IMG/VR virus record: IMGVR_UViG_3300030406_000364
Coordinates: 1-50,469 of that record
Strand: one strand, 5' to 3'
DNA: 50,469 nucleotides
Origin: a virus
Shown here: piece by piece, positions 1-30,262 of the stretch
Layout: every line of letters starts with the position of its first letter
Position numbering within the stretch: the first letter of the stretch is position 1
The notes under the pieces: model-generated
The model's database searches: none
Seen by the model: the letters and a program-made list of their open reading frames with translations, nothing else
Told to the model about the DNA's origin: nothing
Program-made: the position numbers and the translations under genes

Positions 1-254
1 AATGCAACAGTTTCGTTTGTATACCTTGAAGTATAACTTTCTGATGCATCATCATAAACAACAGCAGCACCTTCACCTTTAGTAGGTGCAGCACCAAAAC
101 CTGTGAAGAGTACTTCTTCTTCAAAAGCTCTGTCTGATGATTCTATTTCGTATAATGGTTTGTGTTCGTCTTCCACGCTGCCATATTCTATTCCAAAAAC
201 TGCATTCAGTCCAGGAAGTAGCTCTTTGGCAATACTTGCTCTATTTATAGCCAT
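1..254 (-). CDS. major capsid protein, N-terminal part (cut by window edge)
   Basis: An ATG at 254 opens a frame that runs off the left edge; the first 84 residues are visible. They begin MAINRASIAKELLPGLNAVF and contain TGFGAAPTKGEGAAV, which I recognise from N-termini of major capsid proteins of alphaproteobacterial phages, often annotated as Mu gpT-like. The protein would form the icosahedral shell. It follows the scaffold and two head-associated genes in the same minus-strand operon, the normal place for a capsid gene. A purine-rich ribosome binding site (GGAAAGG) lies just upstream. The C-terminus is outside the window, so the fold and length cannot be checked. Confidence 0.75.
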   Translation of the reverse strand, partial: MAINRASIAKELLPGLNAVFGIEYGSVEDEHKPLYEIESSDRAFEEEVLFTGFGAAPTKGEGAAVVYDDASESYTSRYTNETVA

Positions 255-6352: not shown

Positions 6353-6381
6353 ATTATAACACTAAACTCTCCAGTATGCAA
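6353..6381 (-). promoter_or_regulatory. promoter-like site at the end of TerL
   Basis: On the minus strand, TTGCAT (6381-6376), a 17-base spacer and a perfect TATAAT (6358-6353), preceded by TTTAGTGT as at the scaffold promoter. It overlaps the TerL stop and would drive the small ORFs, portal and head genes. The -35 element matches consensus at only the TTG. Confidence 0.45.
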
Positions 6382-7972
6382 GTTTTTTTTCTTTTGGTTC
6401 ATCTTCCCACTCTGGATCTTCAGGATGTGATAGATGCCAAGACTCTTTTACATAGTGTATAGCCATTGTCATTGCGTCAACTTGGTCATCATGTGCAGCA
6501 TTTGGAAAGCGTAACATTTCTTCTAATAAGTCTTCTGACCACTTTTTATTTTTAGGAAACCATACTTTACCTGCTTCCATCATAGGAGTAGCTGCATATA
6601 CTCTGGATACCTTATCTCTATCAGGTAAATATTCTAACACAGGTATACCAGCTCTACGCATATCTTGTATTAATGATTGTCCTGATGCTTTCTTTTCTAC
6701 CATACAAACATCAGGTCTATGTTCTTGATATAACATTTGTGTCATACGTCTTAATTCTGGATATTCAAATCTTCCTTTAATGTTTCCTAATAAAATAAGA
6801 TTACCTTGAAAAGATTCTATACCTTCTTCACTTTCATCATACATAGAGAATATACCCCATGTCTGAATAACACTATAATCTGCTGTTGTCTTGGTAGAAA
6901 ACGCTGTATCATACGTTTGTAGTATAAAATCACATGGTGGTGGCTCACCATATTCCCACCATCTTAACCATTTCTTTTTTATTAACCCACCTTCATCTGG
7001 TGTGGGATCTTGCATATATAAGGCATTCCAGTATCGTGCACCATTTGAAGCTTTAATCTCATGTTCATCTACACGTAGTACTTCATCTGGTTTCCATTCA
7101 GGAAAATAACTAGAACCTACTGGAAGATCTAGTAATTCTGCTGCATCTTCATCAAGCCATGCTGGAATACGTACAACTTCCCAAGGAATAACATCATAAT
7201 CCCCCATATTCTCTTCTTGTTTTAGTAACCATCCACAGAGATCATCATAATGATAACGAGTATTAATGATGAGTATAGAACCATTAGGCATTATACGTGT
7301 TCTTAATCCTGCTGGATACCATTCCTTAACGTATCTTCTGCCTGCTTCAGAGTATGAGTCCTCTTCTGACATAACATCATCAAGGATCGCAATGTGTGCA
7401 CCTCTTCCTGCAATCTGGGATCGTACTCCAGCAGCATAGTATTGTCCACCTTTGTTTGTTTTCCATTTTCCTGCTGCTCGTACATCTGAACGTAAGGACA
7501 CTCCTTTGAAAACATTTTGAAATTCTTCAGCATTAACCAAATCTCTGACAGAACGACCAAAATCGCTTGACAACTGGTCACTATGGGAAACAGTAAGTAT
7601 TTCATGTTCTGGATTCCTTCCAATATACCATGCAGGAAACAATTTAGAACAAATAACAGACTTTGATGAACGTGGTGGTAGAAAGACCATAAGTCTTTTT
7701 ATCTCACCAGACTCTAATTGACGTAGTTTCTCTGATAAAACCTCTATATGCTTACCCATTTTAAAGTCTGAAACAAGCATTGGAGCCATTTGTTTAACAA
7801 ATGTAAGAAAATCTCCTTTAGAATCCTGTTGAACTTTGTGGGAAACAAGTAATTGTAGGTTTAAGAGAGCTTCAAATTGTGATGGAGTCTCTATAGTCTC
7901 TATAGTATCTGTGGTTTCTATGATTTTGTATCCTTTGTTGTATGTTTTTATATATTTTAATAAGAAAAACAA
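6362..7972 (-). CDS. terminase large subunit (ATPase and nuclease)
   Basis: A 536-residue packaging motor. The ATPase part has a Walker A at about 98-106 (LPPRSSKS, a variant with Ser where Gly is usual), Walker B IAILDDV (195-201) and a coupling motif INTRYH (236-241). The C-terminal RNase H-like nuclease shows acidic residues at D355 (TYDTAFS), E426 (MVEKKASG) and D495/D496 (AAHDDQVDAM), as in T4 Gp17-type terminases. It cuts concatemers and pumps DNA through the portal. The first 30 residues come from low-complexity repeated codons (TIETIE) and have no ribosome binding site, so the true start may be internal. It is the first gene behind the strong promoter at 8028-8057. The matching small subunit is 22 kb away on the other strand. 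Confidence 0.92.
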   Translation of the reverse strand: MFFLLKYIKTYNKGYKIIETTDTIETIETPSQFEALLNLQLLVSHKVQQDSKGDFLTFVKQMAPMLVSDFKMGKHIEVLSEKLRQLESGEIKRLMVFLPPRSSKSVICSKLFPAWYIGRNPEHEILTVSHSDQLSSDFGRSVRDLVNAEEFQNVFKGVSLRSDVRAAGKWKTNKGGQYYAAGVRSQIAGRGAHIAILDDVMSEEDSYSEAGRRYVKEWYPAGLRTRIMPNGSILIINTRYHYDDLCGWLLKQEENMGDYDVIPWEVVRIPAWLDEDAAELLDLPVGSSYFPEWKPDEVLRVDEHEIKASNGARYWNALYMQDPTPDEGGLIKKKWLRWWEYGEPPPCDFILQTYDTAFSTKTTADYSVIQTWGIFSMYDESEEGIESFQGNLILLGNIKGRFEYPELRRMTQMLYQEHRPDVCMVEKKASGQSLIQDMRRAGIPVLEYLPDRDKVSRVYAATPMMEAGKVWFPKNKKWSEDLLEEMLRFPNAAHDDQVDAMTMAIHYVKESWHLSHPEDPEWEDEPKEKKLAYWRV

Positions 7973-8027: not shown

Positions 8028-8057
8028 ATTATACACTACTCCCCACTTAATTGTCAA
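8028..8057 (-). promoter_or_regulatory. strong promoter for the packaging/head operon
   Basis: On the minus strand, a consensus TTGACA (8057-8052), an 18-base spacer and a consensus TATAAT (8033-8028), with TAGTG directly before the -10. Transcription would start near 8021, leaving a leader of about 50 bases before TerL. Both hexamers are perfect sigma70 matches, so host RNA polymerase should use it. Confidence 0.75.
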
Positions 8058-8141
8058 GTACTTTTTTTATTTTTTTTATTTTGATGAGAGATCCTGGTAT
8101 TTTTGTTGCATATATGGCACACCTGTATATATATATAACAT

Positions 8142-8357
8142 GCACGCACGATTTTTGGGGTGGGGTGTAGTCTCTATAGACTACAAAGTCTCATTATCTC
8201 TAAAGAGATACCTTAAAGTGCTTAAATATTAGGCAATCTTATAGATTGCACAAAAATTAGGCAGATGAATGCTTAAATTTTCATCATTCATGCGTGTATA
8301 ATGCATATATTTGCGACATGATATGCCTACAAATTAGGCAGTTAAACCTTTGGTTTA
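8142..8357 (+). other. array of short hairpins, possible structured RNA or origin region
   Basis: Between the divergent arms lies a run of inverted repeats with little spacing: 8166-8185 (8-bp stem, 4-base loop), 8195-8210 (7 bp, 2-base loop), 8233-8249 (7 bp, 3-base loop), 8265-8291 (7 bp), 8303-8326 (6 bp) and 8343-8357 (6 bp, 3-base loop). Woven between them are three copies of ATTAGGCA (8228, 8256, 8333). No ORF explains the region. It is less AT-rich at 8142-8185 than its surroundings. The dyads could be single-stranded replication signals, a folded RNA or protein-binding iterons. I can show the pattern but not the role. Confidence 0.5.
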
Positions 8358-8368
8358 CTTACTATTTT

Positions 8369-8404
8369 TTATTAATATATGAATGTATATGAATATATTA
8401 ATAA
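8369..8404 (+). repeat. AT-rich stem-loop repeat, copy A
   Basis: A perfect 12-bp inverted repeat (TTATTAATATAT at 8369-8380, its complement at 8393-8404) around the 12-base loop GAATGTATATGA. Within it, ATATGAAT occurs twice, 10 bases apart (8377 and 8387). First of five related elements. Confidence 0.8.
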
Positions 8405-8456: not shown

Positions 8457-8508
8457 TTGACAACATAATTAAAATATAATATATGAATGTATATGAATAT
8501 ATTATATT
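8457..8508 (+). repeat. AT-rich stem-loop repeat, copy B, with TTGACA
   Basis: A perfect 12-bp inverted repeat (AATATAATATAT at 8473-8484, complement at 8497-8508) with the same loop as copy A, GAATGTATATGA (8485-8496), and the same 10-base spaced ATATGAAT pair. A TTGACA lies at 8457-8462, so this may be a promoter with an operator across its -10 region. It precedes the 55-aa gene by about 30 bases. Confidence 0.75.
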
Positions 8509-8703: not shown

Positions 8704-8741
8704 TTAAAAATAATATATGAATACTTATGAATATATTATTT
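8693..8741 (+). repeat. AT-rich stem-loop repeat, copy C, with TTGACA
   Basis: TTGACA at 8693-8698, then 17 bases to TATGAA (8716-8721), which is also the first of two TATGAAT boxes 10 bases apart. The flanking arms form an 11-bp perfect inverted repeat (8708-8718 with 8731-8741) around the loop GAATACTTATGA. It lies 24 bases before the start of the Gp88-like gene. Confidence 0.75.
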
Positions 8742-8764
8742 ATTAATTAATATTGGAGATGATT

Positions 8765-9538
8765 ATGATTTACGATTTATCAAAATTGCCAAAGGCAACA
8801 CAAAAAGAAATACAGAATAATTATTCTGAATTGTTTTCTAAATTTCCAGAAAATTTATTTTCTGTTAATGCAGATACAAAAACTAAAAAAGGTAAAAAAC
8901 TAAAAGTTTTGACAGGTATTATGTACCTTGCACCATATAAGTTAAGTGGTGTTAATGTCTGCCCTATGGCAGAACTAGCTAGATGTCATGAAGGTTGTTT
9001 AAATACTGCTGGTAGAGGACAATTTACATCTAATCAGATGGCAAGGTTAAGAAAAACATTGTTTTATCAACAATATCCTATTGAATTTAAACAGTTAATT
9101 CGTAAAGAATTAAACAGATTGATTAGACAAGCTAATAAAATAAACTTCACGCCTATGGTGCGATTGAATGGCACATCAGATGTGAGGTGGGAATTGTTTA
9201 TGCCAGAAATATTTAAAGAATATTCACATATACAATTCTATGATTACACAAAAATACCTAACAGAAAGTTAGGTAATATACAGAATTATGACGATACTTT
9301 CAGTTATTCTGGCGTAAAAGAATATCAACCTATGGTTGAAAAAGCTATTAAGAATAACAAAAGAATAGCAGTAGTGTTTAGAAGTAAAGAGAATCAACCA
9401 CGCACATTCATGGGAATGGATTGTGTGAATGGTGATGATACAGATGTAAGACCATATGATAAGCAAGGTGTGGTTGTTACTCTGTATGCCAAAGGCAAAG
9501 CTAGAAAAGATACTTCTGGTTTTGTAGTTGACAATTAA
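8765..9538 (+). CDS. phage Gp88-like (DUF7227-type) protein
   Basis: A 257-residue protein. I place the start at the ATG at 8765 because GGAG at 8755-8758 is six bases upstream; an earlier TTG or ATG would lie inside or against that site. The motif CPMAELARCHEGCLNTAGRGQ begins near residue 67, and VRLNGTSDVRWE follows near 135. Both are hallmarks of a family found in many phages (mycobacteriophage gene 88 type), with conserved Cys and Asn residues that suggest a metal or catalytic site. The biochemical role is unknown. Behind stem-loop copy C, it is probably an immediate-early gene. Confidence 0.7.
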   Translation: MIYDLSKLPKATQKEIQNNYSELFSKFPENLFSVNADTKTKKGKKLKVLTGIMYLAPYKLSGVNVCPMAELARCHEGCLNTAGRGQFTSNQMARLRKTLFYQQYPIEFKQLIRKELNRLIRQANKINFTPMVRLNGTSDVRWELFMPEIFKEYSHIQFYDYTKIPNRKLGNIQNYDDTFSYSGVKEYQPMVEKAIKNNKRIAVVFRSKENQPRTFMGMDCVNGDDTDVRPYDKQGVVVTLYAKGKARKDTSGFVVDN

Positions 9539-29854: not shown

Positions 29855-30262
29855 ATGGCTTTAAATGATAAACAAGAGAAGTTTGCTCAAGCGTATATCC
29901 TGCACAGAAATGCAACAGAAGCTGCAAAAGCTGCAGGATATGCTGAGAGTTCTGCCTATAATCAAGGTTATAGAAACTTACAAAATCAAGAAATAAAAGA
30001 ACGTATTGCAGAATTAGAGAATACGTTAGAGACTTCAGTAGATGTTATTACTGAAATAGAAAATCAATATACCTTTGCTAAAGCAAATGGTCACACCAAT
30101 AGTGCTATCAAAGCATTAGAATTATTATCACGTATAAGAGGAGCCAAAAGCGAGACAGAAATTGATATGTCTGCTGAAGGTTTAGAAGCTAATATTATAG
30201 AGAATCTAAAAGTATTAGGTAAAGAAAAAGTTATGGAGCTTATAAAAAAATGTGGCTTCTAA
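29855..30262 (+). CDS. terminase small subunit
   Basis: A 135-residue protein beginning MALNDKQEKFAQAYILHRNA, then TEAAKAAGYAESSAYNQGY, the helix-turn-helix of Terminase_2-type small subunits that recognise the packaging site. The rest is helical and would form the oligomer. It is far from TerL and on the opposite strand, the last gene of the plus arm. A lone TATAAT-like -10 lies at 29828-29833. A ribosome site is weak. Confidence 0.8.
   Translation: MALNDKQEKFAQAYILHRNATEAAKAAGYAESSAYNQGYRNLQNQEIKERIAELENTLETSVDVITEIENQYTFAKANGHTNSAIKALELLSRIRGAKSETEIDMSAEGLEANIIENLKVLGKEKVMELIKKCGF

Follow-up and report, generated by a model that had tools for sequence, protein, structure and literature searches.

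The segment at 8142–8357, taken as a whole, was judged to have about an even chance of being a terminase-linked array of protein-binding sites in double-stranded DNA at an early/late gene junction, an assessment that draws on sequence comparison among phages. The stretch of DNA that was analysed (the window) covers bases 1 to 50,469 of an IMG/VR phage record 58,140 bases long, and the segment lies within the junction between leftward late genes, of which terL is the first, and rightward early genes of this 58-kb phage. The early and replication genes, the latter encoding a T7-like primase-helicase and PolA, occupy about 8540 to 30262 in rightward orientation; beyond them the structural genes run leftward. 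The two terminase genes are as follows.

6362–7972, minus strand: terL, large terminase subunit, first late gene (phrog_38, E 2.6e-112).
29855–30262, plus strand: small terminase subunit, last early-strand gene (PF03592 Terminase_2, E 4e-16; phrog_51).

The first-pass annotation had described the segment as non-coding, with six short inverted repeats and three identical ATTAGGCA boxes, and all three descriptions were confirmed. No gene overlaps 8142–8357, and a coding leader peptide in a 30-codon ORF at 8140–8232 was rejected: its frame is not preserved in relatives, whose T-runs vary in length. The count of perfect inverted repeats with a stem of 6 bp or more was six, compared with a mean of 0.59 in dinucleotide shuffles of the same 216 bases, and none of 500 shuffles reached six. 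The ATTAGGCA boxes are on the plus strand at 8228, 8256 and 8333; since the entire 50-kb window contains seven copies versus 2.6 expected, three within 113 bases constitute a real cluster. The repeats and the dyad sites to which the boxes belong were located as listed, none with an assigned strand.

8166–8185: palindrome 1, TGTAGTCT-CTAT-AGACTACA, stem 8 bp, loop 4; 100% paired in nine relatives, with three two-sided changes.
8195–8210: palindrome 2, TATCTCT-AA-AGAGATA, stem 7 bp, loop 2; two-sided changes at two pairs in relatives.
8219–8235: dyad site 1, TGCTTAAATATTAGGCA, holding the box at 8228; same position for the first site in several relatives.
8233–8249: palindrome joining dyads 1 and 2, GCAATCT-TAT-AGATTGC, stem 7 bp, loop 3.
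8247–8263: dyad site 2, TGCACAAAAATTAGGCA, with a degenerate left half, holding the box at 8256.
8264–8285: inverted repeat GATGAA-N10-TTCATC, stem 6 bp, loop 10.
8324–8340: dyad site 3, TGCCTACAAATTAGGCA, holding the box at 8333; also a perfect inverted repeat, stem 6 bp, loop 5.
8343–8357: inverted repeat TAAACCTTTGGTTTA, stem 6 bp, loop 3, then a T-rich stretch; not scored as a plus-strand terminator.

A linker of the same kind as the palindrome at 8233–8249, GCAATCTAAGTAGATTGC, is present in L016 and L018.

The ATTAGGCA boxes proved to be the right halves of three 17-bp dyads of the form TGCYTA-W5-TARGCA, spaced 28 and 77 bp apart; one other match, a poor one, was found elsewhere in the 58-kb record. 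Close relatives with dyads carry them at the same place in the form TGCCTA-N5-TAAGCA, the first site often falling exactly four bases after the GATACCTT box. At the junction, many close relatives of the window phage have palindromes of other kinds, or no palindromes, instead of the dyad. The element was not found upstream of terL in HTVC023P, HTVC027P, 023Pt_psg01 or DSL-LC04, the isolates with the nearest TerL, and a comparison of the junction DNA with isolated phages found no direct DNA similarity.

Tandem arrays, defined as two copies within 30 bp, were then counted in IMG/VR. The asymmetric form TGCCTA-N5-TAAGCA was found in 99 contigs and the symmetric forms in 27 and 7, and a scrambled control pattern of the same composition was found in none. 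Overall, about 130 contigs belonging to 36 lineages carry tandem arrays, and the 84,980 bacterial and archaeal genomes searched yielded a single tandem match, inside an ORF. The dyad centre is composed entirely of A/T in 313 of 337 sites. Of 57 lineage-distinct pairs, 30 have a period of 18–23 bp, the commonest; once lineages were collapsed, helical phasing past two turns was not significant. In the largest array lineage the asymmetric dyad is present in both orientations relative to terL. The isolated SAR116 phage HMO-2011 has one perfect site, in a 490-bp junction between leftward late and rightward early genes. In the literature library searched, no paper contained the exact 17-mers, and searches for motifs described beside terminases gave no match. 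The earlier suggestion of an iteron-type binding region gains support from the appearance of the boxes as halves of tandem 17-bp dyads, mostly 18–23 bp apart, in many phage lineages.

A terminase was detected in 96 of the 128 array contigs, and in 85 of these 96 the array is 0–1300 bp 5' of terS or terL (93 when any distance is allowed), a count that is not fully blind, as the terminase seeds came partly from array neighbourhoods. Such linkage is what is looked for in a cos or pac site, HMO-2011 being an exception. The remaining three contigs, L219, L303 and L309, have terL and portal in the same direction with the array between them, 33–59 bp before portal. For 15 of the 36 array lineages, no terminase or portal was seen in the available stretch. 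In HMO-2011, terL is 8.6 kb from the site, and therefore the link there is to the junction, not to the terminase; what is constant across arrays is the start of the packaging or late genes, not always terL itself. The TerL proteins beside arrays belong to phrog_2, 3717, 9, 15 and 38 and the TerS proteins to phrog_57, 1482 and 5601, and PHROG and Pfam searches indicated that the small terminases have several folds (Terminase_2, Nu1-like and Sf6-like). The dyad arrays track terminase genes more consistently than replication genes.

Irrespective of terminase family, arrays occupy positions 5' of terS, 5' of terL or between the terL and portal genes. On this ground the likeliest job of the array was judged to be that of an accessory site recognised when DNA packaging begins, at the position that cosB with its IHF site, or pac, has in known phages; this role is put forward tentatively and at less than an even chance. 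A dimeric protein would bind the dyads side by side and thereby mark this end of the terminase operon. Contig ends were scattered, with no pile-up at the element and no sign of a cut site, though assemblies cannot decide packaging ends. A cohesive-end cut at the G-rich box described below was rejected on the same scatter of contig ends.

Since the small terminases beside arrays have different folds, they are unlikely to provide the putative binder in every array phage; more probable candidates are a DNA-organising protein of the host and a phage protein that is widely shared. A scan of the early ORFs, most of which are unassigned, identified no regulator with a DNA-binding fold, no initiator-like family and no candidate binder. 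It is possible, at less than an even chance and about as likely as the early/late-switch operator considered below, that the tandem 17-bp dyad is a hitherto undescribed, phage-wide cis element by which one kind of host or shared phage protein marks the start of packaging or of the late programme in phages with unrelated terminases. Packaging and late-switch sites are known for few model phages only, each tied to its own proteins, and one dyad sequence next to differing terminase families would suggest that many uncultured aquatic phages use a common factor, perhaps encoded by the host. The dyad also provides a sequence handle that is usable in a cultured carrier phage, such as HMO-2011 with its one site.

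Among the closest parallels is lambda cos, in which cosB contains R sites, bound by one TerS (gpNu1), and a site for the host DNA-bending protein IHF. Like the putative binding arrays, it has repeated protein-binding sites directly 5' of terminase genes, whereas the array motif is common to phages with Nu1-like, Sf6-like and Terminase_2 small subunits and shows no cut site. Protein-binding arrays near packaging genes are a known kind of element; the novelty lies in one motif being common to different terminase families.

The junction was also examined for promoters, and two were identified.

8028–8057, minus strand: late (terL) promoter, TTGACA-18-TATAAT, 12 of 12 consensus matches; kept upstream of terL in relatives.
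8103–8131, plus strand: rightward sigma70-like promoter, TTGTTG-17-TATATA; register and 16–18 bp spacing kept in about 30 divergent relatives.

The first-pass annotation had reported flanking divergent promoters, and divergent promoters were supported, the leftward one being perfect and the rightward one weak by consensus in the window and kept in register. It had placed the weak rightward pair at 8106–8135 as TTGCAT and TATATA. A weak promoter with TATATA (8126–8131) was indeed found, but relatives align the -35 hexamer as TTGTTG (8103–8108), a slight shift. Relatives have better hexamers in the same register, for example TTGAAA-17-TATAAT, so that two hexamers 16–18 bp apart, as in a sigma70 promoter, are conserved; transcription would be expected to start near 8138. 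In several relatives a separate TTGACA promoter is located further downstream, before the first early gene.

An operator or upstream activating array for the early/late switch was ranked second among the possible jobs, and remains a tentative alternative. According to this explanation, a regulator on the dyads between the divergent promoters would repress or activate the terL/late operon or the rightward promoter, and the array might act as an operator or enhancer. The array's position between the perfect late promoter and the early genes agrees with this, as do the divergent genes that flank it in the largest lineage and in HMO-2011, and AT-centred 17-bp dyads about two turns apart resemble operator arrays. 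However, the site between codirectional terL and portal in L219, L303 and L309 would be a poor place for an operator of the terminase operon, as would that in L203/L282, where the terS start codon follows the array after 10 bp, and the scan of early ORFs provided no regulator gene.

The rightward promoter begins a module that is common to phages with TerL 65–100% identical to that of the window and that is independent of the dyads. Its order is the promoter, a T-run with a G-box, about 40 variable bases and the GATACCTTA box, with nearly fixed spacing in relatives. The two boxes in the window are given below.

8152–8166, plus strand: T-run and G-box, TTTTTGGGGTGGGGT, 23–29 bp after the -10 element; aligned across relatives.
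8207–8215, plus strand: GATACCTTA box, about 75 bp after the -10 element; near-invariant.

GGGTGGGG occurs once in the window, at the G-box. Measured from the end of the -10 element in most relatives, the G-box starts at 23–29 bp and GATACCTT at 70–77 bp. The span from G-box to box end is 57–59 bp in most relatives, 49 bp in one sub-group and 28 bp in another, and the most distant clades have kept the G-box and lost GATACCTTA. The variable middle contains palindromes in the clade of the window phage, a dyad in L005–L007 and a perfect parS in L168. In place of the G-box (8157–8166 in the window), L028 has a C-run, CCCTACCCC, and L029 has CCCC; L025 lacks the G-box, and GATACCTT stays in all three. 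The C-runs in L028 and L029 with GATACCTT kept hint at a strand-symmetric DNA feature.

A structured non-coding RNA had been among the proposals of the earlier annotation, and the folding results argued against it. An RNA, or a 5' leader of the early operon such as an antitermination leader, would be in line with the conserved promoter just upstream and with the plus strand of 8142–8380, which folds 4.5 standard deviations better than shuffles (z -4.5). The minus strand folds as well, however (z -4.9), and in 28 relatives the conserved module had a mean z of -0.8 on the plus and -0.5 on the minus strand, with many values near 0 and no significant strand preference. Compensatory changes, whose absence was to count against function, were found: the two stems between the G-box and GATACCTTA had, in nine close relatives, 13 two-sided and 0 one-sided changes, 0 G-U pairs and three unpaired cells. 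Such changes are as compatible with a DNA dyad as with an RNA stem. Rfam gave no match at the gathering score, only chance-level matches above E 5, and the downstream TTGACA promoters of several relatives also speak against a leader. Neither a fold conserved across homologues, nor a strand-specific signal with G-U pairs, nor membership of a curated family was found. Folding on both strands, two-sided changes and orientation flips are better explained by a double-stranded DNA site than by an RNA, and an RNA reading was considered the least probable of all, highly unlikely.

Loop sequences appear in opposite orientation in different relatives (CTAT versus ATAG), a change that template switching would produce, and the hairpin sequences vary among relatives. 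Both observations would be explained if the palindromes were selfish or mutation-driven repeats, spread and kept perfect by template switching and with no job for the phage. This is improbable, as the fixed 17-bp length and the half-sites in 36 lineages, together with the terminase linkage, need selection.

A replication origin, at which the rightward promoter would make a primer or open the duplex and the dyads would serve as initiator iterons, is likewise unlikely, though ahead of the repeat and RNA explanations. The phage has the T7-like primase-helicase and PolA genes, the G-box and GATACCTTA box are at fixed positions 20–80 bases from the promoter start, and the tandem dyads adjoin an AT-rich stretch. 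The 18–23 bp spacings agree with the two-turn arrangement of iterons, the window's own spacings being longer. The junction coincides with a GC-skew flip; however, GC skew tracks the orientation of the genes throughout the window, and it was discarded as origin evidence on account of this confounding. In addition, arrays are located beside terminase genes, some with no replication genes in view, and many relatives of the window phage have no dyads. The iterons of plasmid and lambda origins are similar to the arrays in being 17–22 bp tandem sites about two helical turns apart that adjoin AT-rich DNA, and differ in that the arrays are linked to terminase rather than replication genes and have no initiator gene among the ORFs scanned.

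Further comparisons were made with sites of host proteins, a DNA-organising protein of the host being one of the two likelier kinds of binder for the terminase-linked array. The ParB site parS, TGTTTCACGTGAAACA, is a palindromic site of a host chromosome protein; its sequence differs from the dyad, and it is absent from the window's copy. Exact parS sites were found next to terminase in two phage lineages (L168, 1966–1981; L299, 14–29, and 14 related contigs). In L168 it occupies the same junction spot, and in the 15-contig lineage of L299 it is within 3 bp of the dyad array. This recurrence would agree with host DNA-organising proteins being recruited. The detailed comparison of the dyad with the Fis consensus serves as a lead only. 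Fis motifs have an A/T-rich centre (PMC8630636), as does the dyad, and the NtrC site, TGC-N11-GCA (PMC10746234), has the same outer frame; in the dyad the inner half-site CTA/TTA is fixed, unlike in either, and the similarity to both appears to be one of consensus only. The pac sites of P22 and SPP1, at which packaging starts, resemble the putative arrays in acting in cis near terminase genes. That of P22 is a 22-bp asymmetric sequence inside terS (PMC9611059), whereas the arrays are tandem intergenic dyads.

Several other features of the junction region were observed. Palindrome arrays of other kinds are located at the junction upstream of terL in L062, L050, L053, L149 and L003, and the palindrome of L003, TGAGAATGATTCTCA, has a Fur-like 7-1-7 shape. 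At the 5' end of terL (7880–7925 in the window) there is a tandem TAGTCTCTATAG-like sequence, equal to the arm and loop sequence of palindrome 1 (8166–8185) and common to relatives. The end of the 58-kb record (L200) overlaps its start (window 1–100) with a 20-base offset, by appearance a circular assembly, and this overlap is far from the element. The first larger early gene (8753–9538) encodes a GP88-family protein (PF17338) of unassigned function; another lineage, whose terminase differs (L279, L251), also has a homologue close to the array. Successive early genes are preceded by an AT-rich inverted repeat (TAATATATGAATGTATATGAATATATTA or variants of it), at 8373–8400, 8477–8504, 8711–8738 and further downstream, with TTGACA just upstream in at least two cases, as if each early gene had its own promoter.
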